Below, one piece after another: positions 5,890-49,647 of a stretch of 64,000 nt of DNA. The notes below the pieces were generated by a model. That model was given only the letters and a program-made list of their open reading frames with translations, did not search any database and had not been told where the DNA came from. A program made the position numbers and the translations under genes. The stretch comes from Powellomyces hirtus. Taxonomy: Eukaryota > Chytridiomycota > Chytridiomycetes > Spizellomycetales > Powellomycetaceae. Positions within the stretch are counted from its first letter, which is position 1, and every line of letters starts with the position of its first letter. The stretch lies in the NCBI GenBank assembly GCA_025526995.1, contig JAHLKG010000015.1:372001-436000 (forward strand). Direction: 5' to 3'.

Positions 5890-6698
5890 TTATCTTTTTC
5901 TAGTAGTTGGCTGTATCGCCAAAGAGTTTGGATGTGCTGTGCGCCATCGTTCATAGGCAGATGTTTCTCGGAGTTCAGACTCAGGTTCCCATGTAGGGTC
6001 GGCCCATCCTGCCCATTTGACCAAAAGATTTCGCTTGTGGCAGCGCTCATCGAGAATGTCTTCAACAACCCATTCTTGTTCTCCACAAACTTCGACTGGT
6101 TTGGGTGGTTGTTGGACTTTGTGTTGTGGATATTGGTCTATTGCGTGAGGGCGTAGGATATCGACATGGAAGACAGGCCAAATGCCACTAATCTTTGAAG
6201 GCGAGAGGTCGAGTTCGTAAGTGTCAGGATGACCACCTTTGGCAATGACTTTGTAGGGTCCAATCCATATAGTAGAGAATCGAGGGCCTCTTCTTACGTC
6301 AACCTCGAGGTCTATACCCTTGCGATTGAGGTTGACGAGATCTCCAATATTGTAAGCGATAGGAGTTCGGCCTTTGTCATGTTGTCGGGCATATTCATCT
6401 TGTGCTCGACGCAGGTTTTCGCGTACAATTCGCGCTATCTCTTCTTGTCCCTTATGGTATCTTTCTAATTCGGCCTTATCGACTCTGCGTAGATGAAGTT
6501 CTTGTCCTTCTAGGAGTGGATTCCATCCCGGTAAGATGACCGTTCGGCCAAAGTCTACTTCAAATGGTGTCAGGCCTTCGTATTCGCTTCTAGGGGCAGT
6601 GTTGAAGGCGAACTCGACAGGCGGAAGTAGTTTCTTCCAGTTGCTTCTATCGTAGTTGAGATACTGTTTGAAAATTCTCTTCAGTGTTTGGATGGCCC
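5890..6698 (-). pseudogene. Family B integrase C-terminus and chromodomain (5'-truncated by insertion of A)
   Basis: The minus strand is open from 6698 to the stop at 5890-5892, about 269 codons without a methionine, so it is easy to miss. In order it shows the stretch after the catalytic Glu (AIQTLKRIFKQYL), NTAPRSEYEGLTPFEVDFG, the GPY/F module (WIGPYKVIAKGGHPDTYEL), FHVDILRP, and a C-terminal chromodomain (WVVEDILDER, LVKWAGWADPTWEP). It is the missing half of the integrase whose N-terminal half lies at 26586-27340. The reading frame crosses the insertion site intact once A, C and one copy of each duplication are removed. The piece itself carries no stop. Confidence 0.9.
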
Positions 6699-6974
6699 TG
6701 TAATAATACTAGGTCCGTTGCCAGAGTCTAGTCTTCTATTCGGGAATTCCCTATGTCTAATTCTACTGTAAGATCTCTAAGTCTTGAATACCCCCCTTGT
6801 CGGAGTATTCCTACTTTTCTTCTGGACCGCGAGGCGGTCCTGGTCACGTGATGGCCATCCGTGGCCATCCCTGAGGTCTAGTACCCTTCGGGATGCTGAC
6901 GCTAGCATCCATCTCGCGCGGGGCCCTTCCCGACGCGTATCTAGGCTTAGGCTGGCGAGCCACGCCTCATTACA
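6699..6974 (-). repeat. Family A 3' LTR (copy A)
   Basis: On the plus strand it reads TGTAATAATACTAGG to GCCTCATTACA. It is nearly identical to 20114-20389. The adjacent C-rich run (G-rich on the element strand) at 6975-6980 is the polypurine tract. Confidence 0.95.
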
Positions 6975-7389: not shown

Positions 7390-8123
7390 ATGGACGTCGA
7401 CCGCAACAACTCCCCGTCCCCCGACACCACCACCACTACCACCACGGCTAAACGCCGTAACAACCAACAGCTGCAGAAGGCAGCCGCAAAGAAGGTCCAG
7501 CTCGCCGGGGTGAGTGAAGTCTTGACTGTTCCCGTCGGTCGCGGCAATCCCCTTACGCCGTCTCACAGGAGCCGACCGTCCACTACAATTCGACCCCGGA
7601 GGTCGCGGTCGCAACCAGCACCTGCTGGAAATGCGGCCTGCACAAGGGTGGCAAGATGTTCCTCGGGGAATGCCACCACATGATTTGTCGGCCATGTATT
7701 GTGGCCTTGGCCGACGCCACCGTACGTTCCCGCTGGTTATGGGGCTTCCCGGTGTCGTTTGGTACTCATTTCCTCTCTCTCTTCTTCCCTTCTGTAGGAC
7801 ACTGGCCCTCTGGGCCAGTTTGTGTGTGGTGTCGACCGGTGCGGGAGGATGCTGCACTTCGGTGCAATCCCGGTCTGTTGCGTCCATGACGCTTGCCCCT
7901 CCGCCGTGGCGGCCCTCCGTTGGCTCCCCTGCGCCCATGTCAACTGCATGGCACACATTTGCGCGTAAGTCATCTCTTCTCGTCGATTGTACGCTTACCT
8001 TACCGGCTGATCCATTTCTTCCATAGCGAAATGAACATTGCGAATTTCACTCCGCTCCGATGCGGCATGGGGGAGCGCTGCCACGGGGCAAAATGCCTCT
8101 TCTCATTCACCCGTATCAACTAG
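7390..8123 (+). CDS. Antisense, intron-containing Cys/His-rich RING-like protein carried by family A element
   Basis: Four exons, 7390-7509, 7569-7721, 7798-7964 and 8027-8123, join in phase to 178 residues. The three introns (59, 76 and 62 nt) have GTGAGT, GTACGT and GTAAGT donors and pyrimidine-AG acceptors. After a Thr-rich start and a basic helix (KRRNNQQLQKAAAKK) come metal-ligand-like clusters: CWKC, then 11 residues, then CHHMICRPC, which is RING-like. Further clusters are CGVDRC, CCVHDAC, LPCAHVNCMAHIC and RCGMGERCHGAKC. A zinc-binding, perhaps E3-like, protein is plausible, but no exact family was recognised. It is transcribed against gag-pol. Because its introns are only spliceable on the antisense strand, they survive the element's RNA stage. 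An equivalent copy exists in A' with the same splice sites. The stop lies 146 bp from insertion D, so the gene is undamaged. Confidence 0.8.
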
Positions 8124-8269: not shown

Positions 8270-8635
8270 TATTGGAATGTTGAGACTTGCGTACTCAACG
8301 TTTAGTCCTTACATTAGATCCTTACTTGGATTCTCCGACTAGAACGCGTGACCACCATACCGGTAACGCTAAGAGCTGATTTGGATCACGTGTGATCACG
8401 TGATTGGAGAAAAAGTAGATTAGAACGCTCGAAGCGAGACATTACCGATAAGACAAAAAGACAAGAAATACATTCACATACATTACATCTCTGTGCAACT
8501 GATAACGCTACACCGACAACTGCATCACAGAAGAGCTCTGTAAACCCCCTTTACGAAGTATACTGGAGGCCACATCGAATTCGGCCAATCCTCTGCATTT
8601 CCGATAAAGTACTGGAAACGCCGATATCGCCAATA
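8270..8635 (+). repeat. Family D 5' LTR
   Basis: It runs from TATTGGAATGTTGAG to GATATCGCCAATA, with a short perfect terminal inverted repeat TATTGG/CCAATA. It contains the palindrome GATCACGTGTGATCACGTGAT. Confidence 0.95.
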
Positions 8636-8649
8636 GGTTATGAGCCCTG
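8636..8649 (+). promoter_or_regulatory. Primer-binding site of copia D (initiator-tRNA anticodon arm type)
   Basis: GGTTATGAGCCCTG directly follows the LTR. Its complement, CAGGGCTCATAACC, equals the anticodon stem-loop region of yeast initiator tRNA-Met. This is the half-tRNA priming arrangement known for Drosophila copia and yeast Ty5. Element C has the same site. Confidence 0.75.
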
Positions 8650-8750
8650 AGACCGGTCGAATTCAAATCATTCTCCCTTTGTAAAACCTGTAAACTACAA
8701 GTCTTCCGTCGAACTTCAAGTGCCAAGAAAGTACCGAGCACACCGTCAAG

Positions 8751-11700
8751 ATGCCTACTGCAAGACCTCCCATTCAAGGAGTGCAGACCCGCCAACAAGC
8801 CCGTCAAGCCACACGAGAAGCCCAACGGGGTCCTGACGCTGAAGAAGACGTTAATATCGATGCCTCGATCTACCATGATTCCCACGATGCAGATGCCGAT
8901 GTGGATGAGATGAATCATGGAGAAATTCATGCAGACTCGGCGATAGTACCGTCCGAAGTACCAACTGACATTGTCATGGAAATTCTGCAGAGGTTCAAGA
9001 TGGAAATCGACAAAAAGCTCGACCATCGGATGGACAGGTTGGAGAGAACTTTATTGACTAGTTCAAACCCTCTCGCTACATCAACTTCCCATCAACAACC
9101 CGAGAAGTACGAAAAGCCTCATATCGGTAGTCATTCTACGGCCGTTTCACCGATGAGAAGCCCAAAAGCGGGCCTTGAGTACCCTTTTCTACATCAACAC
9201 ATTACTCACGGCGAAGTTGAAGCCCCAGTTGCCCCTCACTTTCGTCCGTCTTCCCCAACGGAGAGCACAACAACTACGAGCAGCAGAAAGAGCGATGATC
9301 GAGACGCACAACGAACATCATTCGCATACTTCAAATCTGCGATTGATGCAGTAACTACATTCGACGGGACGGGAAATCTCTCAAAACTCGCCAACTTCAT
9401 TGATCAACTCACTCTAGTCTTTCGCCTAAAACCCGTATCTGAAGAAGAACAGCTCTCATTCATCTTCACGAAGCTCTCTGGCGAAGCAAAACAATGGTAT
9501 CGTAATCACCAGAAAGATGCCAAACAAGGGATGGTGGAGCCCATTACAGACTGGGAATCCTTCAAGCCTCCTTTCCTCTTGCGTTACCAACCAACCGATC
9601 ACGAAGAGACTTTGCTCACTCAACTTGAAAGACTCCGACAAGGAAGTCATTCCATCTTGCAGTACAATACCTCATTCACGAATATCACAAGTCAGATCCC
9701 CTTGAAGGTGCCATTTGAAATCTACAAGTGGTTCTATCTTCACGGAATGAATGAACATCATGCAGAGCTCGTCAGAACTCAAAGTTTCAAGGATCTCCAT
9801 GGTCTCATGGCAGCTGCCAAGCGTCTGGATAATGGAAGTAACAAGAGTAACCAAAACAACAATCGTTTCGCCAAGAAGAGCGAAAACATCGCGCTCGAAG
9901 CCCAACCTTCAAAGAAAGACGGCTCAAGTCACAAAAAGACCGACGCGAAGAAGACCACAGACTCGAAGAAGAGACAGAACTTCCCCTGTTGGTTATGCAA
10001 TTCGAATGAACATACCCCATTCAATTGTCCCCTCAAAGCCAAGGCAGTCGAAGCCTTAAAACCCGCTGCTAATGCCAACATTGCAGAAGCACATAACGCC
10101 ACTACATTGGCATACCTGGATTCGGGCTGCTCACAGCACATGACGAATGACATTTCCATTCTCAAATCCTACGAAGAGCACTCAACGCGTGTCAGATTTG
10201 GAAACAACGCCTTTCTCGATGCCGAAGCAAAAGGGAACGCAATCTTGAAGCTTCCAGATGGAGATGTACCCCTCACAGATGTTCTCTACGTTCCGAAGCT
10301 TGCCAAGACTCTCATCTCGGTCTCCGCACTCACCAAAGATGGAGAGAGAGTCACCTTTGAAGATGAGAGCGCTATCATTCAAGACTGCAATGGCACTACG
10401 AACGACATCACCATACCTCTCGTTCGAGGAATGTATCACATCTCGCCAACTCCGATGGCTTTCGCTACTCAAACTCGCTCAAGGACACACGCGTCCAATG
10501 TACCGACACACGCGTCGAAAAATACATCTACCGAATTGACAAAATGGACAAACGCGTCCAATGTACCGACACATGCGTCCGATACATCGATTCAAGCGCT
10601 CAACCTGTCGACAGACGCTACCGGCATCTTGGTCACGCGTTCTACTTCGATCCAAGCCACGTCGGAGGGGCCGGCCGCCCCAAATGGGGGGCCAGCCGGC
10701 CCCATACTCTCCAGTGAGGGGGCTGGCCGCCCCAATTTGGGGCTGGCCAGCCCCCCACTGGAGAGTGAGAGTTGTGGGTGCTGTGGTGGGGGGCCGGCCA
10801 CCCCAAAGGCATCGGATGATGCCGAGGATGGTGCCCCCTTGGCTTCTTCTGGGGCTGGTCCTGGTCCCTCTTCCCCTGTCAACGAAGGAACCCTCTGGCA
10901 TCACCGATTGGGCCATCCTGGCACTCACATCATGAAGCAACTCAAGCTCCCAATGACCAACGAAGTCTGCAAGGTTGCGAGTTTGGTAAGCACAAGCGCT
11001 CACCATTCAACAGTACGATGACACGGTCCAAGATGCCACTCGATCGCCTACATTTTGACCTAAACGGTCCGCACATACCCGCGGTTGGCGATGAGAAATA
11101 TGCCCTCGTTGTGATCGATGACTATTCACGCTTCACATGGATCTTCTTCTTGAAGACGAAGAGCGAATCTACTGCAAAATTGATTGAATTCATCAATTTT
11201 ATCGAAAAACAGACCAACAAAAGGGTCAGACGACTTCATTCCGATCGAGGGGGGGAGTTTGTCAATCACGATCTGAAAGAATTCATTTCAAAAAAGGGCA
11301 TCCTGCACGAACTCACCGCTGCAGATTCCCCACAGTCCAACAGTGTAGCTGAAAGGTTCAACCTCACCCTGTTCGACACCATTTGTTCATTGGAACACTC
11401 ATACGGCATCCCAAAACAACTCTGGACCGAGTTAGCGGCTACATCAGTCTACTTACGGAATCGCCTACCCCACAAGTCCAATAACAACATTTCGCCGTAC
11501 GAACGGCTCAACGGCAAAGAGCCCTCACTTTCTCACCTTCGTGTGATTTGGGCCGATGCCTTCGTGCATCTCGTCAAGAGAAAACAAGTCTCAAAGTTGG
11601 CACTGCGCGCCACACGTCTCAAACTCATCGGTTACGAATTTGACGGCGCTTACCGCTGTTGGGATGATAACCGTCAAGAAATAGTCATTTCTCGCGATGT

Positions 11701-12394
11701 AACGTTCGACGAAAACTCAGCACTCGAACTTGCAAAAGACTACATTCCGCCCGAAGAACTCTACGAAGTCGAAGAGATTCTCGACTCACGTGATGGCCCG
11801 GAAGGCCCCGAATTCCTCTGCAAATGGCTAGGATTCGAAGACGAAGATAATATATGGGAACCGCTCGAAAATGTCAATCATTTGACAGTCTTCGCTCACT
11901 ACATCAACGAGAAGACGGCGATCGCTCTTTCGGCTGCAAGTACTGAAGAACCCCAAGCCTACAAACAAGCGCTCTCATCAGACGACGCGCCGAAGTGGAC
12001 CGAGGCCATAAATGCCGAATTGAAGTCCCTTCATACCAATGAAACATGGGAAGTCATTAACCCCAAATCCTTACCGCACAATCAACGGCCCATCCGCACC
12101 AAATGGGTATTCAAGATTAAGCGAGACCTGAGTGGTCAACCCCAACAATACAAGGCCCGGCTTGTAGTGAAAGGCTTCGAACAACGCTACGGCATCGACT
12201 ACAACAAAACCTACGCTCCGGTTGCCAAGATAGCTACCCAACGCGTCCTACTCGCTCTCGCCGCCAGTCTAGGCTTGAAATGCCATCAAATGGATGTAGT
12301 AACCGCATTCCTGAATGGGATTGTTACCGAGACCATCCTAATCTATGCTCCTGAAGGCTCTGGCTTTCCGCCTGGGACCATCCTTCTACTCTGA
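8751..12394 (+). pseudogene. Copia D polyprotein, gag to start of RT (frameshifted, ends at nonsense codon)
   Basis: The first frame, 8751-11021, holds Gag and a CCHC knuckle (CWLCNSNEHTPFNC, about residue 411). It continues with protease LDSGCSQHM (about residue 456), a long Thr/Gly-rich spacer, and the HHRLGHPG pre-integrase motif. Around 10974, CAAGGTTGCGAG appears to lack one T, which pushes translation out of frame. The rest of the integrase finger lies in the frame 11018-12394. That frame contains the catalytic core (LHFDLNGP, LHSDRGGEF, SVAERF), a chromodomain (YEVEEILDSR, FLCKWLGFEDEDNIWEPLE), and the RT start (TKWVFKIKRDLSGQ, CHQMDVVTAFLNG). It ends at TGA 12392-12394, where CGA (Arg) is expected before KALYGLKQAP. 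These are two simple lesions in an otherwise well-kept copia polyprotein. Confidence 0.9.
10706..10766 (+). repeat. GC-rich 61-bp near-perfect palindrome inside copia D
   Basis: The left arm ACTCTCCAGTG/AGGGGGCTGGCC/GCCCCAA and its reverse complement on the right differ by two single-base indels. It lies in a GC-rich block (10660-10810) with further GGCCGGCC-type inverted repeats, inside the protease-integrase spacer of the polyprotein. Confidence 0.8.
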
Positions 12395-13579
12395 AAGGCC
12401 CTTTACGGTCTGAAACAAGCCCCGCGCGCATCGTACTCCCTACTTCACAAAGAACTGACTTCTTTGGGATTCAAGCGCCTGGCAAATGACAATGCCGCCT
12501 ACATCAGAACTCTACCTGAAAGTGACTCATCACAGTACATCTCCGTCTACGTCGACGATCTCCTCATTTTCGCAAAGACCGAATCAGAAATCTCGTCAAT
12601 CAAGACATCCCTGCACAACGAGTTCAACATGACAGACCTAGGCGAAGTCAACCACTACCTGGGAATGGGAGTTCAACGCGATTACTCAAGGCACGTCATC
12701 TATCTCGATCAAGAGTCATATGTAAATGACATCCTCAAGCGCTTTGGTATGCAAGATTGCAAGCCCGTCAACACTCCGATGGACCAGACCAAGCTCGAAC
12801 CCTACGAAGTCGAAAATACAAAGACCTCACCTAACCCGCAAGAAGGAGAATATCGCGAAATCGTTGGTTCTCTCATGTACCTGATGATATGCACGCGTCC
12901 TGACATCGCTGTCGCAGTCAGTATGCTTTCTCGCTTCGCAAGCAACCCTTCGCCTCAACATCTGCAAGCTGCAAAGCGCGTTCTTCGCTACCTACGGGGA
13001 ACATCAGATTACAGTCTCTGCATCGGCGGAAATAACGTCACCCTTCACGGCTACAGCGATGCCGATTGGGGAAACAACATCATTGATCGACGGTCAATCA
13101 CTGGCTACCTCTTCTACATTGGAAATGCGGGCCCCGTTACTTGGGCTTCGAAGCGCCAACCCACCGTTGCTCTCTCATCTACCAAAGCTGAATACATGGC
13201 ACTTTCATTTGCCACTCAAGAGACAATCTGGCTTCGCTCACTTCTGCAAGAACTCCAAATCCCCGAATATCTCGATGAAAATGCTCGACCTACAATGATC
13301 TACGAAGACAATCAGTCATGCATCTCGTTGGCAATGAATCCCGTGCATCACGCCCGTACCAAGCACATCGACATTCGACATCACTTCATTCGTGATCACA
13401 TCGACAAGGAGATTCGCCTGGAGTACTTACCCACCGCTGAAATGGTAGCCGACTCACTTACAAAGCCTCTACCGGCCCCGGCATTCAAATACCATCGCGA
13501 AAGCATGTGCATCAAGCACTACGACAACACTATCACGCCAATGACGAAAGCGTCCATGACGGAGCTCCCGAATGAGTAA
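12395..13579 (+). pseudogene. Copia D polyprotein, RT core and RNase H (downstream of nonsense codon)
   Basis: It continues in the same frame as the preceding segment after TGA 12392-12394, first with KALYGLKQAPRASY. It contains the intact RT catalytic box YVDDLLIFAK, then the RPDIAVAV and QAAKRVLRYLRGT stretches. The RNase H part has YSDADWGNN, SSTKAEYMAL, YEDNQSCI and a TKHIDIRHHFIRD end. The stop is TAA at 13577-13579. Only about 40 bp separate it from the 3' LTR, including the polypurine tract AGGGGGTG (13611-13618). Confidence 0.9.
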
Positions 13580-13618
13580 AATCCCATCATCGCGGATCGA
13601 TTGCTCGGACAGGGGGTG

Positions 13619-13984
13619 TATTGGAATGTTGAGACTTGCGTACTCAACGTTTAGTCCTTACATTAGATCCTTACTTGGATTCTCCGACTAGAACGCGTGA
13701 CCACCATACCGGGAACGCTAAGAGCTGAATTGGATCACGTGTGATCACGTGATTGGAGAAAAAGTAGATTAGAACGCTCGAAGCGAGACATTACCGATAA
13801 GACAAAAAGACAAGAAATACATTCACATACATTACATCTCTGTGCAACTGATAACGCTACACCGTCAACTGCATCACAGAAGAGCTCTGTAAACCCCCTT
13901 TACGAAGTATACTGGAGGCCACATCGAATTCGGCCAATCCTCTGCATTTCCGATAAAGTACTGGAAACGCCGATATCTCCAATA
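13619..13984 (+). repeat. Family D 3' LTR
   Basis: This is the 366-bp partner of 8270-8635, ending GATATCTCCAATA. The target duplication GAGCC follows directly. Confidence 0.95.
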
Positions 13985-14092
13985 GAGCCTTGTAGCATTC
14001 CGTATGCGTCCGCTGTGTCCAATGTCACTCGGCTTCCTCCCGGCTATGGTGCTCATGGTAGATACCCTGCATCACACTTCCCCATTGGGAAG

Positions 14093-14905
14093 ACCGCCCA
14101 GCGGTTCCCCGGCCATCGTCCAACGATGCCGGTATCTCACCTAGTGAGGTCTACTGCTTTGCAGTCTTCGGCTCATCGCCCAGCGATCCCGGCATCTTGC
14201 CCAGCGAGATATACTGCCCAGCAGCCTTCGGCCATCGTCCAACGATGCCGGCACCTCACCTCGTGAGGTCTACTGCCTCGCAGTCTTCGGCCATCGTCCA
14301 ACAATGCCGGCATCTCACCTCGTGAGGTCTACTGCCTCGCAGTCTTCTGCTCATCGCCCAGCGATCCCGGCATCTCGCCCAGCGAGGTATGTCGCCCAGC
14401 GACCTTCGGCCCATCGTCAAACGATGCCGGTATCTTGGCCGAAGCCCTTCTCTTCCCCTTCGCGTGGGTATGTACTACGGCCATGGTCCCCGCGGGTCTC
14501 GAGGTACGCTGCCATTCAAATCTGGTGCCGGTCACCTTGCATCGACAGCCGGTCGATGCCCAGCATCACCCTTCTCACCCAGTGAGGTATGCCGCCCAGT
14601 GGCCTTTGGCCCATCGTCAAACGATGCCGGTATCTTGGCCAAAGCCCTTCTCTTCCTCTTCGTGTAGGTATGTACCACGGCCATGGTCCCCGCGGGTCTC
14701 GAGGTACGCCGCCATGCAAATCTGGTGCCGGTCACCTTGCATCGGCAGCCGTCGGCTCATCGCCCAGCGATCCCGGCATCTCACCCAGTGAGGTATGCTG
14801 CCCAGCAGCCTTCGGCCATCGTCCAACGATGCCAGCATCTCGCCCAGCGAGGTATGCTGCCCAGCAGCCTCCGGCCATCGTCCAACAATGCCGGAATCTC
14901 GCACT
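14093..14905. repeat. Array of tiny covarying hairpins in family A (copy A)
   Basis: The array is made of modules with a 5-bp stem, 3-nt loop and 5-bp stem. Examples are ACCGC-CCA-GCGGT (14093-14105), ATCGT-CCA-ACGAT (14115-14127), CTCAC-CTA-GTGAG (14136-14148), ACTGC-TTT-GCAGT (14153-14165), ATCGC-CCA-GCGAT (14175-14187), and later CTCGC-CCA-GCGAG and GTCGC-CCA-GCGAC. Stems change in a complementary way from module to module while CCA loops dominate. Three modules form a repeat of about 60 bp, with GCCGG and TTCGGCC spacers that could themselves pair. About 14428-14755 is a further roughly 200-bp duplication with an inserted non-hairpin segment. The array lies between the pol stop and the antisense gene, and copy A' has the same array (37590-38402). 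Confidence 0.85.
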
Positions 14906-14963: not shown

Positions 14964-16127
14964 CTAGGTTCTCTTACGTCGCCTGGCTGCTAGCCTTTGG
15001 CCGCGGTCCTCTCCGGGGTGCTCCCGGAGCCATTCTTCCAGTGCGGTCGTCCCCTTCACATGTGCATACGGCTCCCACGTGTTCTGGGTGCTGTCGTAAC
15101 CTGTCCACTTGACTAAGAACTGCTCGGTGTTCCTGTGCCATCTGGCATTTAGGATCTTGTCCACTTGGTAGGTCTCCTGACCGTCTTCGTCCTTCTCGGG
15201 CTCAGGCGGAGCGGTGACCTGTCTGTACGGGGTACCGCCCGGGTCATGGTAACGTCTCAGAATGCTGACATGAAAGACTGGGTGCAACCCGGTGAACCCC
15301 TTGGGTTGTTCGAGCTCGTAGGTGTCAGGATGCGGCCCCTTGCCGCGTACTGTGAGTGGCCCAATCCATTGCTCAGCCAGCTTTTTGTTCCTTGTGGTGA
15401 TGCTGGTAATCGCGATACCCTCACGATGAAGTAAGACCTTGTCACCCTCTCGGTATGCTTCCGTGTGCTTCTTGCGGTCGTAGTACTTTGCCTGCTGGTC
15501 CTGTGCGTCTCGGAGCCGTTGCTGCACGATGCGACTCACGTCGGCGAATTCCTTAACCCGTCTCTCCACGGCGGTTTGTGCCGATTGCCTTATCATCTCT
15601 CCGGGGTTAGGTGCTACCCATTGGTTCGGTACCCGGGGAACGCGGCCTAGGTCAATCTCGAAAGGGGATAGTCCCGTCGACGTCTGCGGCGTTCGGTTGT
15701 AGTTGTACTCGAGTGTGGGGAGTAAACTCTTCCAGTTGGAGCCCGCATAGTCGAGAAAGGGGCCCATGATTCCCTTGATCGTCTTGATGGCGTTCTCCAC
15801 CTTGCCGTCGGTCTGTTGGTGTGGTGCCGACGAGAGTTCTTGCTTGACGTCGAGTGCCCGCATGAGGTACCGCCAGAATTCCGATAGCCACTTGGGGTCC
15901 CGATCGCTCACGATGGTGTGGGGTAACCGCGTGTGGCAAAATGCCTGTTCCAGAAAGAGTTGAGCCGTCTCCTGAGCTGTAGCACGTGTGTTAGTAGGTA
16001 GGAGTATCCCGCGGCATGAAAGGTAGTCGACGATGAGGAGTACGGCGTCTGCCGTCTTGGTCAGTCTCTCGCCGGTGTGGTGCGGAGGGTTCTTCGTCAC
16101 GTCGGGCTCTACCCGAGGTTCCTCCCC
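14964..16127 (-). CDS. Family A integrase core C-terminal part with chromodomain (copy A)
   Basis: This frame is open from 16127 to the stop at 14964 and lies in the -1 frame relative to the upstream pol frame, which ends at 16109. It carries LLIVDYLSCR, the second catalytic Asp (IVSDRDPKWL), the catalytic Glu (QQTDGKVENAIKTIK), and PFEIDLGRVPRVP. It then has the GPY/F-like module (EQWIGPLTVRGKGPHPDTYEL), HPVFHVSILRRY, and a C-terminal chromodomain (YQVDKILNARW, LVKWTGYDSTQNTWEP). The first catalytic Asp is encoded upstream of the frame break, so a functional integrase needs the two frames joined. The break is shared with A'. Confidence 0.85.
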   Translation of the reverse strand, partial: GEEPRVEPDVTKNPPHHTGERLTKTADAVLLIVDYLSCRGILLPTNTRATAQETAQLFLEQAFCHTRLPHTIVSDRDPKWLSEFWRYLMRALDVKQELSSAPHQQTDGKVENAIKTIKGIMGPFLDYAGSNWKSLLPTLEYNYNRTPQTSTGLSPFEIDLGRVPRVPNQWVAPNPGEMIRQSAQTAVERRVKEFADVSRIVQQRLRDAQDQQAKYYDRKKHTEAYREGDKVLLHREGIAITSITTRNKKLAEQWIGPLTVRGKGPHPDTYELEQPKGFTGLHPVFHVSILRRYHDPGGTPYRQVTAPPEPEKDEDGQETYQVDKILNARWHRNTEQFLVKWTGYDSTQNTWEPYAHVKGTTALEEWLREHPGEDRGQRLAARRRKRT

Positions 16128-18880
16128 TTAGAGCCTGACATGGGGAAGAATATATCCATGCCGATTTGTTGCCAACGGGCGTCGGGGATCGGTAAGCTGC
16201 GGAGGAAACCGATCGGCACGGTTCGCTTGTGACGTTGGCAGGTAGGGCAGGTGCGGACATATTGGTACACATCACGCTCCATGTGGGGCCAGTAGTACGA
16301 CTCCAGAAGTTTGGCAAGCGTCCGTTGGCCACCGTTCGCGAGGGAGTCATGATGAATCTGAAGGAGTGGCCCCCGCAAGCTGTCGGGGATGTACCGACGG
16401 TCATGGTACATCAAGAATCGGTGCGGAGGGAAGTCCACTGTCCGGAATCGGGGTGCATGGCTGGATAGGTTCTCCGGGGGACTGTTGATGGTTAGTAAGA
16501 AGTTTTGGCCGAAATCATCCAATGCGAGCGCTTGGGTCCAGTCCGCATTGGTCGGCATGTGCGTCGGGACGGGCTTCTCCGTCTGCACAATGGCGGTGAC
16601 CACGTCAATCTTGGCCTGGCAGGTTGCACACTTGGGGGCGTAAGTCGGGTCGCAACTGAGGAAGTCGGCGATCGAATTCCATGTGCCGGGGAGGTATTCC
16701 ACTGAGAAATCGAACTGTTGGAGGAACTCGACCCAGCCTGCTTGGCGACGTGACAGGTGGGGTTGTTCCTGGAGGTAGATCAGGGATTTGTGATCAACAA
16801 ACGCACGGAATGGGCGGCTGATGAGGTAATGGCGGTTGGCGCATATGGATTTGACTAATCCCAGTAGTTCTTGTTCATGCACGGGGTATCGAGTCGCGGC
16901 GGGTTGCATCTTGCGGGAGTAGTATGTCACCGGACGAAGTTGCGGGAGGTTGGCTAAGCCTGATTTGGTGGTTGGTAGTGGGTGAGGGTAAGGGAAATCC
17001 CCTTTGGCCGGCTGTGCCAGCCATCCGCCGTAGGCGTAGCCCGATGCGTCCGTGAACAAGTAGGTGTCAAGCGCCGGGTCGAAGTACGCTAGGGTGGGTG
17101 CCGAGGAGCATAATTCCTTTAAGCAATTGAACGCTCGATCTTCCTCGTCACCCCACTGCCATGGGCGGTTGCCAGATTGCAGATTCGTTAGGGGTAGAGC
17201 AATCTGTGCATACTTGGGGATGTATTCCTTGACATAGTTGACGAGGCCCATGAAGCTAAGGAGCTCCAGGGAGTTGGTCGGGCGAGGTCGTTCCCAGACC
17301 GCGGTCACCTTGGAGGGGGCCATACTCAGGCCATCCTGGCCGACTCGGTGGCCGCAGAACCCGACTTTGTCAACCGCCCATTGACATTTGCTAGGTTTGA
17401 CGTGGAGGCGATGTTCCGTCAAGGTCTTGAGGACCTCGTCGACGTGCTGAATGTGCGAACTCATGTCGGTGCTGAATATGAGAATATCGTCGAGGTATGA
17501 GATCACGTAGGCGTCGTACTTGTCGCCCAAGAGCTTGTTCGTTAGTCGCTGGAATGTAGCAGGTGCATTAGTTAAGCCGAAAGGTAGAACATTGTATTCG
17601 AAATGTCCAAAACGTGTTCGGAACGCTGTTTTCTCCCTATCTTCCGGTCGGATCACGATGCAGTGGTACGCGTCGCGGATGTCGATCGCGGTGAATACCC
17701 GCATGTTGACAAGTCTGTCGCGCAGCTCCGAGAGGTTCGGAAGTGGCGTGGCATCCTTGTGAGTCATCTTGTTCAGTGCCCGGTAGTCAATGCAGCAGCG
17801 TAGGCCGCCGTCCTTCTTTGGGGCAAATAGGACGGGCGCGCCCCACGGACTGCGAGAGTGTGAGATCCAACCCTTGTCCATTAAACGCTGCATCTGCTGG
17901 CCGAGCTCGTCCAGTTCGTCAGGGCTCAAATGCTGGAGTGGCTGCATCACGGGCTTTGAGCCGGGTTTGAGCCGAATGGTGAAATTGTCCTTGCCTCGGT
18001 CCGGAGGCATGCCTGACTGCTCGGTGAATAGCGTCGTGATGTATTTCTCTAGGGTCAGTCGGAGTGGATGGTCAGCTGCCAGCACCTCTAGCGGGTCTTC
18101 TTGATCTGCCGCCTTGGCTTCAGTGTTGGTGTGGCGTCGTTCCTCCAAGATTGCCCTTTTCTTGGCGTCGACCCTCCGTACAAATTGAGCCTCTGCGACT
18201 GGAATCGCATCTACAATGTGTACCTCGAAAACTCCAGTGATCTCGCCCTTCTTCATCAAGCGTTTCCATTGCTTGGCTGTGTAGATTCCCTCTGCATTGA
18301 GTGCTGGCTTTGCCGGCTGGAATCTGCGGGGCCGTACCTCTCGTGGGGAGAGTAGGCGGGCAGCGCACTCGGACGGTGCTTCCCAGTGGCGGTTGGTCGA
18401 TTTGGCTCGAAGGCTGAGGGTCTGGCCGTCGTGGTAGAATGTCATCGTTGGAAAGCCCTCTTGGTCGAAAAGCCCTCGGACGTCCAGCCCCAATATGAAT
18501 GGCAAGCCCAGTATGGCATCGACCCTGATCGGCGCGACCATGAACGGTACGGTATCCTCCCGGTAGGTGATCTTCTCCTCGGTGAACACCGAGAGGTCCC
18601 CACAGGTCATCTTTGTTGTCCCGTAGTTTCCCGCCCTGTCGCCCCACCGGACCTCCAGCGGAGTTGGAGAGGTGTAGGTCCGGAGGCCGTGTTTGGCGGC
18701 CCAAGTGTCGCTGATGATCAGGGTGTTACATCCGGTGTCAATTAGGATGCGGGCAAAGTGCCCTTGTCCCTTCCCGTGGACCACGAATGTCTTCCTGTGA
18801 ATGCGGGGTCCCGGTCTGTCTGTGGGGATCTTGTCTTGCATCCGGGGTTGGGGTACTGAGACGGTGCAAGCGTTCAGCAC
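16109..18880 (-). CDS. Family A protease, reverse transcriptase, RNase H and integrase N-terminus (copy A)
   Basis: The frame has 923 codons and overlaps the gag end by 7 nt in the -1 frame. In order it has the protease ILIDTGCNTL (Asp about 48), RT from about residue 300 (WGAPVLFAPKKDGGLR, the YLDDILIF catalytic box about 462), RNase H (YLFTDASGYAYGGW, about 605), and the integrase zinc finger and core start (GMDIFFPM). Unlike A', it lacks four codons (HSGV) just after LANGG. That deletion removes the second His of the HHCC finger and probably disables the integrase. The frame ends at TAG 16111-16109, shortly before the second integrase frame. Confidence 0.9.
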   Translation of the reverse strand: MLNACTVSVPQPRMQDKIPTDRPGPRIHRKTFVVHGKGQGHFARILIDTGCNTLIISDTWAAKHGLRTYTSPTPLEVRWGDRAGNYGTTKMTCGDLSVFTEEKITYREDTVPFMVAPIRVDAILGLPFILGLDVRGLFDQEGFPTMTFYHDGQTLSLRAKSTNRHWEAPSECAARLLSPREVRPRRFQPAKPALNAEGIYTAKQWKRLMKKGEITGVFEVHIVDAIPVAEAQFVRRVDAKKRAILEERRHTNTEAKAADQEDPLEVLAADHPLRLTLEKYITTLFTEQSGMPPDRGKDNFTIRLKPGSKPVMQPLQHLSPDELDELGQQMQRLMDKGWISHSRSPWGAPVLFAPKKDGGLRCCIDYRALNKMTHKDATPLPNLSELRDRLVNMRVFTAIDIRDAYHCIVIRPEDREKTAFRTRFGHFEYNVLPFGLTNAPATFQRLTNKLLGDKYDAYVISYLDDILIFSTDMSSHIQHVDEVLKTLTEHRLHVKPSKCQWAVDKVGFCGHRVGQDGLSMAPSKVTAVWERPRPTNSLELLSFMGLVNYVKEYIPKYAQIALPLTNLQSGNRPWQWGDEEDRAFNCLKELCSSAPTLAYFDPALDTYLFTDASGYAYGGWLAQPAKGDFPYPHPLPTTKSGLANLPQLRPVTYYSRKMQPAATRYPVHEQELLGLVKSICANRHYLISRPFRAFVDHKSLIYLQEQPHLSRRQAGWVEFLQQFDFSVEYLPGTWNSIADFLSCDPTYAPKCATCQAKIDVVTAIVQTEKPVPTHMPTNADWTQALALDDFGQNFLLTINSPPENLSSHAPRFRTVDFPPHRFLMYHDRRYIPDSLRGPLLQIHHDSLANGGQRTLAKLLESYYWPHMERDVYQYVRTCPTCQRHKRTVPIGFLRSLPIPDARWQQIGMDIFFPMSGSKGRNLG

Positions 18881-20085
18881 CCGGGGCGAAAGTCCGAGCT
18901 GTTGACTGAGCCCCCGTCGCTGGCCGCCTCGTCTCCGGACCCTTCGGTGATCTCTACAGGGGCGGCAAACGTCCTATGCTCACCGGTTTTACCTTTACTT
19001 GCTGGGCACCCACGGGCGTAATGCCCCTTGCCCCCGCAGTTGAAACATTCGTTGCGCTCACGACGTTCGTCGTAGATGGTGCGCTCACGGCGTGAAATCC
19101 CATGGTAGTTGTCCATACCGCGTGTGGGACGACCTGAGCCATAGGGGGTGTGGCGTCCCCTTTCTCGTGCTTGATAGTTCCCTCGATGTACCTGAGCCGG
19201 CTGGACTGCAGCGTACTGACGTCTTCTCTCGTCGGGGGTTACCCGTGCGACATCATCCGCATAGCCTCGAATCCTGTAGCATAGTAGAGCTTCGTTCTGT
19301 AGCTCGGTGATCGGGATCTTGGCGCCATTATTCCTCATGATTGCGGCATAGCAGTGGTCCCGAATGCGCTGGCCGACATGGTTGGTCGAGAATCCCGTCA
19401 AGAAATAGTCACGTTCTTGCCTTGGGGTAAGCCGCTCCTTGTCGTTGAGCATCGCGATCTGGGCCCGAAGGGTATTGAACTTGGCGATATACTCCGATAT
19501 GCTATTGGTGAAAACCAGCCGCTTCATCTTTGCTTCTACGGTGTTTCGTAAGTTGGCGGGGTAGAAGCGGGTGCGGAGGATCCTCGTGAATTCTTCCAAT
19601 GTCGTGGGCTGGTCGCCGGCATCTCTGAGCATTTGCCACCATTCGTCGGCGGTTTCCTTGAGGTACCCCAAGATGTGGTCGACGTCCCGGTGGTCCGTTC
19701 TGAAGTCGGTTGCCTCAAGGTAGCGCGTGTGGACCTTCAAGAACTCATCGACCTTCGACACCATTTCTTCACTGTTCCCTTTTCCGTCAAAGTGTGTCAG
19801 CTGCTTGCGAAGGTTCTCGCGGCGTTCCTTCTTGGCTTGCATTCGTGCATGGTTTTCTTCCGCCAGGATGATGTCGACGTGCGGTGTTGCAACCGCTGGT
19901 TGGACTGGAGTCGGAATCCTTGAGAGGAGAGCTTCGAAGCGGGCCTCTCCCATTGCGATCTGTTCCTGCAGTAGACGTTGGGTCTCTGCCAATTGTGCAG
20001 CCAACATTGCGACGGGGTTGTCGGTCGGTGTGTCGACTTCGGGTTCTCCTACTGCCATTGGGCTGTTCCTGGTGCTACGTGCCAT
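18874..20085 (-). CDS. Family A Gag (copy A)
   Basis: The protein has 403 residues, starting with ATG 28 bp inside the LTR/PBS boundary. A helical retrotransposon Gag core (FEALLSRIPTPVQP onward, EFTRILRTRFYPANLRNTVEAKMKRL) is followed by a basic Arg/Gly-rich linker and one CCHC knuckle (CFNCGGKGHYARGC, about residue 362). It is nearly identical to A' Gag. It ends at TGA overlapping the pol frame. Confidence 0.9.
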   Translation of the reverse strand: MARSTRNSPMAVGEPEVDTPTDNPVAMLAAQLAETQRLLQEQIAMGEARFEALLSRIPTPVQPAVATPHVDIILAEENHARMQAKKERRENLRKQLTHFDGKGNSEEMVSKVDEFLKVHTRYLEATDFRTDHRDVDHILGYLKETADEWWQMLRDAGDQPTTLEEFTRILRTRFYPANLRNTVEAKMKRLVFTNSISEYIAKFNTLRAQIAMLNDKERLTPRQERDYFLTGFSTNHVGQRIRDHCYAAIMRNNGAKIPITELQNEALLCYRIRGYADDVARVTPDERRRQYAAVQPAQVHRGNYQARERGRHTPYGSGRPTRGMDNYHGISRRERTIYDERRERNECFNCGGKGHYARGCPASKGKTGEHRTFAAPVEITEGSGDEAASDGGSVNSSDFRPGC

Positions 20086-20113: not shown

Positions 20114-20389
20114 TGTAATAATACTAGGTCCGTTGCCAGAGTCTAGTCTTCTATTCGGGAATTCCCTATGTCTAATTCTACTGTAAGATCTCTAAGTCTT
20201 GAATACCCCCCTCGTCGGAGTATTCCTACTTTTCTTCTGGACCGCGAGGCGGTCCTGGTCACGTGATGGCCATCCGTGGCCATCCCTGAGGTCTAGTACC
20301 CTTCGGGATGCTGACGCTAGCATCCATCTCGCGCGGGGCCCTTCCCGACGCGTATCTAGGCTTAGGCTGGCGAGCCACGCCTCATTACA
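20114..20389 (-). repeat. Family A 5' LTR (copy A)
   Basis: This is the 276-bp partner of 6699-6974. The target duplication GGCCC follows at 20390-20394 and abuts the duplication GTTCA of element C. Confidence 0.95.
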
Positions 20390-20639: not shown

Positions 20640-20653
20640 GGTTATGAGCCCTG
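20640..20653 (+). promoter_or_regulatory. Primer-binding site of copia C, overlapping the start codon
   Basis: GGTTATGAGCCCTG is identical to the copia D site and complementary to the initiator tRNA-Met anticodon arm. The polyprotein ATG (20644) lies inside it, so this element has essentially no leader between the PBS and the ORF. Confidence 0.75.
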
Positions 20654-23600
20654 AAATGGTAGGCAACGAAACGAGCCCCCGGTACACTCGTAGTATGTTA
20701 AGACGCCTAACGGGTTGGCAGACCCCAGGGTCCAATACGCTACAACGAGCCGTAGAATGTGCAGCAAAGAAAAGCGCACGAGTGCCTGGTGAATGGACAT
20801 CACCAGACAATGGAGGGAAATCTGCCGGTAACGATACACTGGCAGAGCCAACGCCTTTAAGTGTTGACGCCAACGAGGGCGACGATGCATTGGAAGGGCG
20901 TACCCAAAACATCGACCGACGCGATGGCAAGGTCGATACCCGTCCCCTATCAAGCAGTACGGATGATCACAGAACGATCAACTACAGTACTCCAGCGGCA
21001 TTCCCAAGTGGGGAATCAGCGAACACCGTGCATGTCCGCCTGCGCGAGGCGGACGTGGATAGGATAGATCGGCTTGAGAATTCTCTAGCCCAACTAACGG
21101 AAATGCTCCAAATGAAATGGCGCATGGATCAGGATGTGAATATCCCGGTCAACCCTCAGGTACGTACGGCGCTACGGCGCGTACGCACACCATCACCCAC
21201 TCGCAACGACGGGTTCGCTGCACCGTGGACAGAGTACAATCAGGAGATTGGAGCTCAACAGGAATACCAACGTTCTCCATTCGAACGCCGCCCTACATCA
21301 CCGACATCAAGCATACACAGCGTGACGACCAAAATCGTCGACAGTCGAGGTGCGAAGGCTTTCGTGGATGGAACGCTGAAAGATATTGGATCTTACAACG
21401 GGGAAGCCAATATGGTCAAACTTCGAACGTTCATCAACAAGATTGAGACGGTTGTGAAGTACGAAATGGTTCCGCCCGAGTTTCTCGTAGATTTTGTGGC
21501 TACGAAACTCACAGGATGGGCATACACTTGGTGGCAGTCGCTCTCACCAAATAAAAGGAACGAAATTATGACGTGGCATGACTTTGAAGACGTTGATTCA
21601 GGAAGAACCAACACCGGTCTTAGGTCCGTCCTTCTGGCGCGGTTCGCGCCACGAAACCTCACTAGGGATTCGCTGCAGAAATTACGGGAATTGCGTCCCA
21701 AAGGCCGCATGGATGAGTACATCACTCAGTTTAACATGCTGGCATTTTCTCTGCCGAAAACACCGGATTACGTCCTTCAGGTTTACTTCATCAATGCGCT
21801 AACACCAGACCTTGCGGCCTTGGTTCAGGCTAATGAAGAAAACATAACTGATTTGAGCAGTTTACAGGCCGCTGCATCCAGGATCGCCGCCAATATGGCT
21901 AAGAAACCTAGCGGGACCTCAACGGATATGCGACCAGGAGCCGCACACACTGACGCCTCTAAGAAACAAAAGGGTGGCAAGAACCACGGGGAGAAGTCAA
22001 CAAACGGCAAGAAGGATAAGGAATCTACTCCGTCAAACAAAGGTCAACAATCACAAAAGTCGGGTTGTTGGGCCTGTGGAGACTCTAAACACCGAACACA
22101 GGAGTGCGAAGTGTTAAAGAAGTTCAAATCCGAGATGGAGAAGAACAAGACGAAGCAGTCGTCTGATGGTGCTGTTAGCACAAATGCTGTGGAAGCATTA
22201 CACGTCTGGGTCTGCCAAGAACAACCGTATGAAGCCCTCATCGACTCTGGCGCTACGGACCACATGACACCTCACAAAGCGACCTTGGATCACTCAACCG
22301 TGTACAGTGATGTCAGAGCTGTTATGCTTGCTGACAAAACATCACTACCCTCTACAGTTCGAGGTATGGTACGAGTAGAAGTTAACGACTATCCGAATCC
22401 GCTCGAATTGGGCGGAGTCCTGCATGTGCCAGGATTACGACAAGATCTCGTATCGGTAGCGAAATGCAACGATCAAGGCGTTGACGTGCTCTTCAAATCG
22501 AATGGAGACGTCATTTTCACGCGAGATGGAAAAGAAATCGCCAAAGGCGTACGCCGCAACAACGCGTATTACCTGCAAGGTACGCTGCTGTCTGAAAGGC
22601 TGTGCTCAGATTCAGAAGCATGCACTGTCGAAGTCTCTCCTACACTCGCTCATGCTCGTCTTGGACACGTCGGTAAACACGTCCTGGAGAAGATGGCATT
22701 GGTTACGGACGGTTGGTCCGTAGTGGGGGATCTAAGTGACTTCAAAGATTGTGAAGCCTGCGTGCTAGGAAAAGCCGCTTGTCTTCCATTCTCCCCTGGT
22801 AATGTTGAAGCCAGGGAGATCTGTGAGCTGATTCATTCAGACCTACAGGGACCTTTTCGTATCCCTGGTTACGAAGGATCACGCTATTCGCTGGAGTTCA
22901 TTGAACACACGTCCAGATACGTGACTGTTTTCCCTATTCCTTCAAAGGATTCAGCAGTCATACTCGACAAGTTTCTCATTTACAAGGCTTGGATTGAGAA
23001 ACAGACTGACCGGCACATCAAGATTCTACGCACGGATCGAGGCACCGAATACTTTGGTGAGGTTCTAGAGTACCTATTGAAGAATGGTATCACTCACCAA
23101 AAGTCCGCGGCCTATTTGAGTCAGCAAAACGGGATTGCCGAACGATGGCATCGCACGGCGCTGGACAGGGTCCGCGCTATCTTCGCGGATACGAAACTAC
23201 CTCGAAGATTCTGGCCTGCTTTACTGGTAGCAGCTGGATACATCTATTCCCTTACGTACAACCGCATCAACAAGAAGACGCCGCATGAAATACTGTTTGG
23301 CCGGCGTCCTGATGTCGCCCATCTTCGGCGTATCGGTTGCGTGGCGTATTCCGTTCTAACCAGCAAAGGACGCGATAAAATGGGGAATCGAGCAAAGAAG
23401 GCTTACTTGGTAGGCTATGCTCAACCCTCAGGTACCAAGGGGTATCTGGTTTGGGATCCTATCACTGACAAGGTCGAAGTGTCACGAGACGTGATCTTCA
23501 AAGAAGACTTGGGACTCGAACCCAAATATCAGCAGGATCCAGCATATCTTGACCTTCTAGATGAGGAGAGTCAGGAGGATGACGTCGAATACACCGTGGA

Positions 23601-32093: not shown

Positions 32094-32369
32094 TGTAATG
32101 AGGCGTGGCTCGCCAGCCTAAGCCTAGATACACGTCGGGAAGGGCCCCGCGCGAGATGGATGCTAGCGTCAGCATCCCGAAGGGTACTAGACCTCAGGGA
32201 TGGCCACGGATGGCCATCACGTGACCAGGACCGCCTCGCGGTCCAGAAGAAAAGTAGGAATACTCCGACGAGGGGGGTATTCAGGACTTAGAGATCTTAC
32301 AGTAGAATTAGACATAGGGAATTCCCGAATAGAAGACTAGACTCTGGCAACGGACCTAGTATTATTACA
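32094..32369 (+). repeat. Family A' 5' LTR
   Basis: It runs from TGTAATGAGGCGTGG to CTAGTATTATTACA and is 276 bp long. Confidence 0.95.
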
Positions 32370-32384
32370 TGGTAGCACCACCCC
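32370..32384 (+). promoter_or_regulatory. Family A' primer-binding site
   Basis: TGGTAGCACCACCCC lies directly after the LTR and is an initiator tRNA-Met 3'-end type site. Confidence 0.75.
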
Positions 32385-32397
32385 GTAGACGACAACA

Positions 32398-33609
32398 ATG
32401 GCACGTAGCACCAGGAACAGCCCAATGGCAGTAGGAGAACCCGAAGTCGACACACCGACCGACAACCCCGTCGCAATGTTGGCTGCACAATTGGCAGAGA
32501 CCCAACGTCTACTGCAGGAACAGATCGCAATGGGAGAGGCCCGCTTCGAAGCTCTCCTCTCAAGGATTCCGACTCCAGTCCAACCAGCGGTTGCAACACC
32601 GCACGTCAACATCATCCTGGCAGAAGAACACCATGCACGAATGCAAGCCGAGAAGGAACGCCGCGAGAACCTTCGCAAGCAGCTGACACACTTTGACAGA
32701 AAAGGGAACAGTGAAGAAATGGTGTCGAAGGTCGATGAGTTCTTGAAGGTCCACACGCGCTACCTTGAGGCAACCGACTTCAGGACGGACCACCGGGACG
32801 TCAACCACATCTCGGGGTACCTCAAGGAAACCGCCGACAAATGGTGGCAAATGCTCAGAGATGCCGGCGACCAGCCCACGACATTGGAAGAATTCACGAG
32901 GATCCTCCGCACCCGCTTCTACCCCGCCAACTTACGAAACACCGTAGAAGCAAAGATGAAGCGGCTGGTTTTCACCAATAGCATATCGGAGTATATCGCC
33001 AAGTTCAATACCCTTCGGGCCCAGATCGCGATGCTCAACGACAAGGAGCGGCTTACCCCAAGGCAAGAACGTGACTATTTCTTGACGGGATTCTCGACCA
33101 ACCATGTCGGCCAGCGCATTCGGGACCACTGCTATGCCGCAATCATGAGGAATAATGGCGCCAAGATCCCGATCACCGAGCTACAGAACGAAGCTCTACT
33201 ATGCTACAGGATTCGAGGCTATGCGGATGATGTCGCACGGGTAACCCCCGACGAGAGAAGACGTCAGTACGCTGCAGTCCAGCCGGCTCAGGTACATCGA
33301 GGGAACTATCAAGCACGAGAAAGGGGACGCCACACCCCCTATGGCTCAGGTCGTCCCACACGCGGTATGGACAACTACCATGGGATTTCACGCCGTGAGC
33401 GCACCATCTACGACGAACGTCGTGAGCGCAACGAATGTTTCAACTGCGGGGGCAAGGGGCATTACGCCCGTGGGTGCCCAGCAAGTAAAGGTAAAACCGG
33501 TGAGCATAGGACGTTTGCCGCCCCTGTAGAGATCACCGAAGGGTCCGGAGACGAGGCGGCCAGCGACGGGGGCTCAGTCAACAGCTCGGACTTTCGCCCC
33601 GGGTGCTGA
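32398..33609 (+). CDS. Family A' Gag
   Basis: The protein has 403 residues, with the same layout as copy A and the CCHC knuckle CFNCGGKGHYARGC. The TGA at 33607-33609 overlaps the -1 pol frame. The overlap reads CGC-CCC-GGG-TGC-TGA, and a P-site slip on the C run would enter pol. Confidence 0.9.
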   Translation: MARSTRNSPMAVGEPEVDTPTDNPVAMLAAQLAETQRLLQEQIAMGEARFEALLSRIPTPVQPAVATPHVNIILAEEHHARMQAEKERRENLRKQLTHFDRKGNSEEMVSKVDEFLKVHTRYLEATDFRTDHRDVNHISGYLKETADKWWQMLRDAGDQPTTLEEFTRILRTRFYPANLRNTVEAKMKRLVFTNSISEYIAKFNTLRAQIAMLNDKERLTPRQERDYFLTGFSTNHVGQRIRDHCYAAIMRNNGAKIPITELQNEALLCYRIRGYADDVARVTPDERRRQYAAVQPAQVHRGNYQARERGRHTPYGSGRPTRGMDNYHGISRRERTIYDERRERNECFNCGGKGHYARGCPASKGKTGEHRTFAAPVEITEGSGDEAASDGGSVNSSDFRPGC

Positions 33610-37531: not shown

Positions 37532-37589
37532 ATAGCGAGCTGTACCGTAAATTAACAAGAGAGATGCTACTTGAGGTAGAGGACATTAT

Positions 37590-38402
37590 AGTGCGAGATT
37601 CCGGCATTGTTGGACGATGGCCGGAGGCTGCTGGGCAGCATACCTCGCTGGGCGAGATGCTGGCATCGTTGGACGATGGCCGAAGGCTGCTGGGCAGCAT
37701 ACCTCACTGGGTGAGATGCCGGGATCGCTGGGCGATGAGCCGACGGCTGCCGATGCAAGGTGACCGGCACCAGATTTGCATGGCGGCGTACCTCGAGACC
37801 CGCGGGGACCATGGCCGTGGTACATACCTACACGAAGAGGAAGAGAAGGGCTTTGGCCAAGATACCGGCATCGTTTGACGATGGGCTGAAGGCCGCTGGG
37901 CGGCATACCTCACTGGGTGAGAAGGGTGATGCTGGGCATCGACCGGCTGTCGATGCAAGGTGACCGGCACCAGATTTGCATGGCAGCGTACCTCGAGACC
38001 TGCGGGGACCATGGCCGTAGTACATACCCACGCAAAGGGGAAGAGAAGGACTTCGGCCAAGATACCGGCATCGTTTGATGATGGGCCAAAGGTCGCTGGG
38101 CGACATACCTCGCTGGACGAGATGCCGGGATCGCTGGGTGATGAGCCGAAGACTGCGAGGCAGTAGACCTCACGAGGTGAGATGCCGGCATCGTTGGACG
38201 ATGGCTGAAGACTGCGAGGCAGTAGATCTCACAAGGTGAGATGCTGGCATTGTTGGATGATGGCCGAAGGCTGCTGGGCAGTATATCTTGCTGGGCGAGA
38301 TGCCGGGATCGCTGGGCGATGAGCCGAAGACTGCGAGGCAGTAGACCTCACTAGGTGAGATACCGGCATCGTTGGACGATGGCCGGGGAACCGCTGGGCG
38401 GT
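37590..38402. repeat. Array of tiny covarying hairpins in family A (copy A')
   Basis: It is the reverse-complement counterpart of 14093-14905, with the same net length. Examples are ACCGC-TGG-GCGGT at 38390-38402 and the ATCGT/ACGAT and GTCGC/GCGAC-type stems. Some stems here carry single changes that weaken pairing (for instance CATTG-TTGGATGATG), so conservation is not absolute. Confidence 0.85.
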
Positions 38403-38655
38403 CTTCCCAATGGGGAAGTGTGATGCAGGGCATCTACCATGAGCACCATAGCCGGGAGGAAGCCGAGTGACATTGGACACAGCGGACGCATACGGAATGC
38501 TACAAGGCTCAAAGGAGCACAGCGATGAGAAGGCAAGTACAGCGATGAGATTTTGGTACTGAATTTGATTACAGCCCGAGGGCCAGGCCCCAAGGGAGCA
38601 ACAGGACGAAATTATGTACAAGAAAAAAGGAAAAAAAAGGGGGGGGGGGGACCAA

Positions 38656-49440: not shown

Positions 49441-49647
49441 TGGGGATTGAGTTCAAGCTGCGTTTTTTTGAACTCTGGTCGCAATTTATCGAACACCGCG
49501 ATTTGACGAAATCCCAGTAAACTCGTTCTATCCTTGCTTTCTTCGAGCTCCCGCATGGCCTACGGGAAATTGAGATATGAATTAATATAATGCTCCAGCA
49601 TAAGGATGCACGATCATCTCCTTTTCGCCATTCAGACAACTTGTACG

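Follow-up and report, generated by a model that had tools for sequence, protein, structure and literature searches.

What keeps the two arms of a hairpin complementary when the letters of its stem change from one repeat to the next? The question is raised by a tract of mini-hairpins in the 64-kb stretch of Powellomyces hirtus DNA analysed here (the window). The first-pass annotation of this tract reasoned that paired changes within one array imply either selection on folding or a copying mechanism that templates inverted arms. We have examined the array, the element that carries it and its other copies in the genome, and we propose that the hairpins probably act as RNA handles for the element.

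Hairpin array

The array of mini-hairpins described in the annotation is genuine and far above chance: there are 23 perfect hairpins (5-bp arm, 3-nt loop, 5-bp arm) in positions 14093-14905, whereas 300 dinucleotide shuffles had 0.84 on average and 4 at most. All the stems named were found in this interval, the loop on the + strand is mostly CCA, and the period, given as ∼60 bp, was measured as 59/60 bp, with a larger 200-bp duplication on top of it. The array starts at ∼14061, two further hairpins, one with a mismatch, lying just beyond the end given for it (14093). A second array, near 37600-38430, has 21 perfect hairpins; the 12 top hairpin counts in the window (sliding windows of 813 bases) all overlap or adjoin one or the other array (Table 1).

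On the sense strand of the element the third loop base is G in 1562 of the 1583 modules with at most one mismatch. At the level of slots (the successive module places of the array) loop position 3 is invariant, position 2 varies in modules of types A, B and C, and position 1 varies in B and C.

Long open antisense frames cross the array, and the public gene model P0002 appears to extend into it. We rejected an interpretation of the array as antisense coding sequence: neighbouring A modules are spaced by a mixture of 59 and 60 bases, so no reading frame is kept through the array. The Rfam search gave no match at gathering score in the window.

As to other repeats and structures, each of the two inserts of the second array (37737-37860 and 37940-38065) can, by sequence and predicted fold, form a larger stem-loop of its own, and one base pair of these stem-loops is U.G in one and U-A in the other. 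Tandem repeats unrelated to the array, with units of 183 bp and 75 bp, are situated at 49633-50179 and 49228-49412.

Table 1. Features of the two array-bearing copies in the window
Feature	Position	Strand	Basis or remark
Hairpin array, interrupted copy	14061-14905	- (sense strand of the element is -)	Three hairpins (A, C, B) per 59/60-bp unit; two structured inserts
Hairpin array, second copy	37606-38434	+	29 module slots
Integrase C-terminal/SH3/chromodomain frame	14964-16100	-	PF24626, PF00385
Pol frame (protease, RT, RNase H, integrase zinc-binding part)	16109-18880	-	Domain matches
Gag with CCHC zinc knuckle	18874-20085	-	PF03732, PF00098
5′ LTR, interrupted copy	20114-20389	-	99.3% to 6696-6974
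3′ LTR, interrupted copy	6699-6974	-	LTR comparison
Copia-type element between array and antisense gene	8270-13985	+	LTRs ∼8270-8636 and ∼13619-13985
Second copy, LTR to LTR, without Copia insertion	32094-40081	+	
Antisense Cys-rich gene, exons 1-3, interrupted copy	7390-7959	+	Matches P0001 (DFJ77DRAFT_512327)
Antisense spliced Cys/His-rich (weakly RING-like) gene, second copy	38656-39389	-	Exon pieces and gene model
Exons of the second-copy antisense gene	∼39389-39270, 39210-39058, 38981-38814, last ending ∼38656	-	

Host element and its setting

The array-bearing element is a Ty3/gypsy chromovirus: it has gag, the PR-RT-RNaseH-IN order, a chromodomain at the C-terminus of the integrase and LTRs, the protease match being just below its cut-off. 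The LTRs are 276 bp long, identity within the two LTR pairs is 98.2% and 99.3%, and the 5′ LTR is separated from the gag start codon by 28 bases. In both window copies pol is split into two frames (14964-18880 and 33603-37531); in several other genome copies it is a single open frame of 1340 aa.

The copy with the first array (- strand, 20389 to 6699) is interrupted by a Copia-type element. Its two halves overlap by 6 bases when placed on the second copy. The motif GAGCC flanks the Copia insert at both ends and is single in the second copy, on the other strand, as a target duplication produced by the insertion would give. Copia-type elements of the window (8751-12394 and 20644-26178) contain frames with chromodomain and Ty3-type capsid matches.

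The order in the second copy is LTR, gag, pol, array, antisense gene, LTR, with the pol stop at 37531, the array next and the antisense stop at ∼38656. The annotation had placed the array exactly between two convergent transcription units. For the coding regions of the second copy this is correct; in the interrupted copy, from which the claim was made, the Copia element separates the array from the antisense gene. Besides, a full-length sense RNA, LTR to LTR, would cross the array, which is thus not outside the sense unit.

Genome copies and specificity to the family

A search with flank patterns in one genome gave 83 right and 81 left matches, from which 72 pairs were taken; at least 72 copies of the element in the genome carry the array. 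Unpaired matches remained on the left (9 of 81) and on the right (11 of 83), and 10 of the latter 11 were read later, outside the counts. The flank-to-flank distance ranges from 200 to 1042 bases and clusters at steps of ∼59-60 bases, so whole units have been gained and lost.

Among eight stretches downstream of related gypsy families, seven were usable (L113-L118 and L120), L119 being set aside as it overlaps a known array. In ∼3.5 kb downstream of each of the seven there was no array and no antisense exon at E-value 0.01; hairpins numbered 2 to 5 per ∼3.5 kb, near the chance rate. Judged from these ∼3.5 kb stretches, the array and the antisense gene look like one accessory block of this chromovirus family. 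Subfamilies of the element are ∼70% identical in DNA of the antisense-gene region, yet their arrays are closely similar (at least 90% in long matches, with 40 of 103 candidates scored).

Pairing of stems between slots

To read the modules, we aligned every copy to a unit. The analysis of distinct modules covered 556 units with 169 distinct 13-mers; two frequent imperfect ‘alleles’ (CACGG and ACCGC/GCGGC), which look like misaligned end units, were left in these counts. Of 845 pair positions, 672 were Watson-Crick; 1000 shuffles of the 3′ letters averaged 427 and never exceeded 466. With partners slid by -1 to -3 only 167-245 of 845 positions were Watson-Crick, and shifts of +1 to +3 gave 67/676, 142/507 and 125/338.

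The commonest allele is perfectly paired in all 29 slots (29/29), which have 10 types of stem. When 3′ arms were shuffled among slots, a mean of 4.0 and a maximum of 12 were perfect (20,000 shuffles); shuffles within classes reached at most 21. Classes A, B and C comprise 27 of the 29 slots, the two GATGC slots being left unclassed. Within the classes 10 stem positions are variable, and they make five complete pairs with none odd: 5/9 in A, 4/10 in B, and 1/13, 2/12 and 3/11 in C.

Two of the five variable pairs, B position 4 and C position 3, have CpG on both arms (CTCGC/CTCAC and GCCGC/GCTGC). The two strands of a palindrome have identical sequence context, and both arms are therefore equally open to CpG deamination. 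The other three, A position 5 and C positions 1 and 2, are non-CpG. Jointly they score 28 of 28, a value reached in none of 50,000 shuffles (shuffle maximum 26); taken singly, C position 2 is weak, 11% of shuffles equalling it, against 0.8% for A position 5 and likewise 0.8% for C position 1. The independent paired events between slots are small in number.

Thus, the paired changes on which the annotation built its argument are genuine between slots, and three pairs, as well as a younger allele found in 11 copies (see below), are non-CpG. Its restriction of the causes to folding selection or arm copying does not hold, as two of the five pairs are CpG on both arms and mutation can mimic compensation. 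The three non-CpG pairs and the 11-copy allele do point to pairing.

Recent changes within slots and on the copy tree

The copy tree was built from 69 of the 72 copies, after one divergent copy (L047) and two short ones (L065 and L067) were dropped. One outlier stood alone at the root, and the changes on the root branch were excluded: 1 non-CpG break, 19 non-CpG and 4 CpG repairs, and 21 changes in loops or spacers. Stem changes at the tips are mostly one-sided: 94 non-CpG breaks compare with 16 changed sites in paired changes, and 169 CpG breaks with 6. The present copies decay mainly by CpG mutation.

On deep branches (five copies or more) there were 2 non-CpG stem breaks versus 15 loop or spacer changes, and at the tips 94 versus 274, a difference that is not significant (p=0.26). 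Small internal branches had 20 non-CpG stem breaks and 63 loop or spacer changes; neither the comparison of all internal branches with tips (p=0.52) nor that of CpG changes on deep branches with those on tips (p=1.0) was significant. A deep-branch signal that looked strong was rejected, 16 of its deep stem changes being situated on one root branch that cut off two of 70 copies. Given the non-significant tree test, we do not claim ongoing selection on the stems. The annotation had staked its argument on an excess of compensatory over single-sided changes; compensation dominates between slots, whereas one-sided changes dominate at the tips of the tree.

Within slots, paired deviations at all sites numbered 96, with 33.0 expected by independence. 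At the hot TCG site they were at chance (22 versus 20.7); outside it we counted 74 versus 12.3 in 29 slots, or 22 versus 2.4 without six slots of mixed ancestry, which were chosen for exclusion after the alleles had been inspected. Many of the non-TCG paired deviations resemble, by eye, swaps to the allele of another slot, so slot exchange and compensation are not separable within slots. Slot 37627 has the younger paired allele GCTGT/ACAGC, a non-CpG one, in 11 of the 69 copies; on the tree these make up one branch of 9 and two single copies, and the slot has no one-sided form. At slot 38390 a C-to-T change occurs in one-sided (3) and paired (2) forms, among other rare forms. One-sided alleles are common to groups of copies and can therefore persist uncorrected.

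Folding of the array

The RNA of the second-copy array folds better than 20 shuffles per strand (z = -4.6 sense, -4.8 antisense). With a span limit of 60, local hairpin probability exceeded 0.5 for 14 of 29 modules on the sense strand and 18 of 29 on the antisense strand of this one copy; the numbers without the span limit were 11 and 18 of 29. RNAalifold, given 100 of the 326 distinct gap-free units, produced a sense-strand energy of -8.3 kcal/mol, compared with a mean of -2.5 and a minimum of -8.9 for column shuffles, at least one of 100 shuffles being as good. Hairpin C emerged on the sense strand; on the antisense strand four of the five pairs of B emerged, together with part of C. There was no covariation bonus for these 100 units, nor any three-arm closure on either strand, and the cloverleaf-like shape that the annotation had the spacers closing finds no support in this fold. 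The bias of wobble pairs toward the sense strand was marginal (39 versus 23, p=0.056). According to these models the pairing potential of the array is clear; the exact fold and the strand are not.

Antisense Cys-rich gene

Downstream of the array, segments of exon size lie on the strand opposite to pol. They are linked into one gene in the public model P0001 (178 aa), whose third exon matches the interrupted copy. Exons 1 to 3 were present in 12 of 12 downstream stretches tested (the two window copies and ten chosen genome loci). Between subfamilies exons 2 and 3 have ∼42-59% identity, with most Cys and His retained. Five of six comparisons gave dN/dS values of 0.31-0.40; the remaining one, between sequences of little divergence, gave 0.62. 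Coding constraint on the antisense gene is shown by these sequence comparisons.

The Pfam scan of the protein gave a RING-type match only, and this was sub-threshold; a sequence search for relatives with solved structure returned none (a single match, E-value 0.37). In a protein search the 123-aa frame holding exon 2 retrieved two proteins, both from Powellomyces hirtus. Scanned against Pfam, neither six antisense frames nor P0001 showed PF04195 (TRP28).

Possible function of the hairpins

We suggest that the array constitutes a structured region, accessory and specific to the family, in the pol-to-3′LTR part of a chytrid chromovirus, where each mini-hairpin would serve as a 5-bp clamp around a three-base loop ending, on the sense strand, in G. 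Selection in the replicating lineage would have held the stems paired, since it is as RNA that the hairpins would function. Pairing kept while the letters change favours folding over sequence-specific DNA binding, and a loop G that hardly varies, next to less constrained bases, speaks for a binding contact. The explanation that we tentatively prefer, though its chances remain short of even, is an old structured RNA platform in which the loop G is fixed and which probably binds protein.

The hairpins would act most likely in genomic RNA, as a multivalent platform for protein, and the most likely partner would be the zinc knuckle of the element's own Gag, with a role in packaging or in targeting to assembly sites. 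Exposed guanosines are favoured by zinc knuckles. For Ty3, an excerpt of PMC4974528 describes the zinc finger as critical to packaging, and the localization and packaging of the RNA as dependent on sequences of the UTR or POL. We find it unlikely, as a more specific proposal, that the hairpins bind a zinc protein encoded by the element, be it Gag or the antisense Cys-rich protein, in a packaging or Rev/RRE-like system forming one accessory block. The loop recognized by proteins of the Smaug/Vts1 type is CNGG; such a partner was set aside, because the loops GAG, TAG, AAG and TTG of the array are incompatible with it.

Alternatives to selection on a structured RNA

Maintenance of the stems could instead be mutational, if a polymerase switched template between the arms (quasi-palindrome correction), perhaps in reverse transcription, with no selection for RNA function. 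We regard this as possible, though on the unlikely side. The process is a published source of compensatory changes in RNA genes, giving paired changes in the stems of RNA hairpins (excerpt of PMC8794818), and it would account for the allele GCTGT/ACAGC lacking a one-sided form in its slot and for the excess of paired deviations outside the hot CpG site. However, paired changes at the hot site match independence, one-sided alleles persist in groups of copies, and reverse-complement forms of the five main loops occur in 0 of 1583 modules. This absence of a loop-inversion footprint sets the chytrid array apart from the template-switch hairpins and speaks against the templated copying of inverted arms offered in the annotation. 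Furthermore, the arms have mostly not grown outward: in distinct units the bases directly flanking the 5-bp arms make a Watson-Crick pair in 71% of A, 5% of C and 13% of B modules (579 of 1761 aligned pieces, those with no more than six gaps, entered this count of flanking pairs).

A different extension of the RNA platform would have the antisense Cys-rich protein bind the array RNA, as a self-encoded pair for export or regulation comparable with Rev and its response element. The array and the antisense gene co-occur in this element, both are missing in seven of seven usable stretches of related families, and the antisense coding sequence is constrained. Still, co-occurrence may merely reflect one acquired block, and the sub-threshold RING-like match was obtained with no RNA-binding domain reported; we consider such a pair improbable.

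Strand-symmetric, context-dependent deamination of CpG could turn palindromes into palindromes with neither folding nor copying needed. Two of the five variable pairs and the predominance of CpG transitions among stem breaks at the tips (169 CpG, 94 other) fit this mechanism. So do copies L103 and L104 (C32), 98.9% identical and poor in CpG (observed/expected 0.47, compared with a median of 0.90 in other long arrays), each of which has changes on both arms in four TCG-bearing hairpins; in the comparison of L044 with L103, CpG decay was commonest in the TCG context (19 of 37 sites). As a full explanation it is quite improbable, since it cannot produce the three non-CpG pairs, whose joint score exceeds every shuffle, or the 11-copy allele, and it leaves the origin of the hairpins unexplained. 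Equally doubtful is a two-sided buffer between the convergent sense pol and antisense gene, in which hairpins would end or slow transcription or 3′ processing: the position of the array between the two stops in the second copy and the folding of both strands agree with it, but full-length sense RNA must traverse the array to reach the 3′ LTR, and termination would not call for a fixed G in the loop.

Relation to known elements

In architecture the element most closely resembles the plant Retand elements (Tat lineage of Ty3/gypsy), as far as these are described in the excerpt of PMC11963269: both have a long pol-3′LTR region and antisense ORFs, and tandem-repeat arrays, family-specific and of varying length, occur in about half of Retand elements. 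The chytrid element thus has the layout of long pol-3′LTR region, antisense ORF and tandem repeats. Retand, in contrast, is a plant non-chromovirus whose antisense product has the TRP28 domain, whereas the chytrid element has a chromodomain and an antisense Cys-rich protein without PF04195. The terms ‘hairpin’ and ‘secondary structure’ are absent from the main text of that report.

Hypervariable tandem-repeat 3′UTRs of the Ogre/Tat elements likewise place repeats downstream of pol (excerpt of PMC7004042, citing Macas 2009), and ‘hairpin’ and ‘palindrom’ do not appear in its main text; the chytrid array differs in that the order of its slots and the pairing of its stems persist from copy to copy. 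Mitochondrial repetitive or double hairpin elements are also small repeated hairpins; as the excerpt of PMC2800124 describes them, they are organellar and mostly dispersed in intergenic regions, while the chytrid array is nuclear and tandem and lies within one retroelement. Among the literature matches listed, which included open-licence papers only and so make this a weak absence, none described an array of covarying hairpins for an LTR element.

The packaging sequences of LTR retrotransposons lack a precise definition, even in Ty1 and Ty3 (excerpt of PMC4974528), and the tandem repeats behind pol are described as being of unknown origin and function (excerpt of PMC11963269). Our observations bring a caution, that CpG decay of palindromes can imitate compensatory evolution. 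At the same time, the chytrid repeat keeps base pairing, and with it the function of such a repeat becomes testable.
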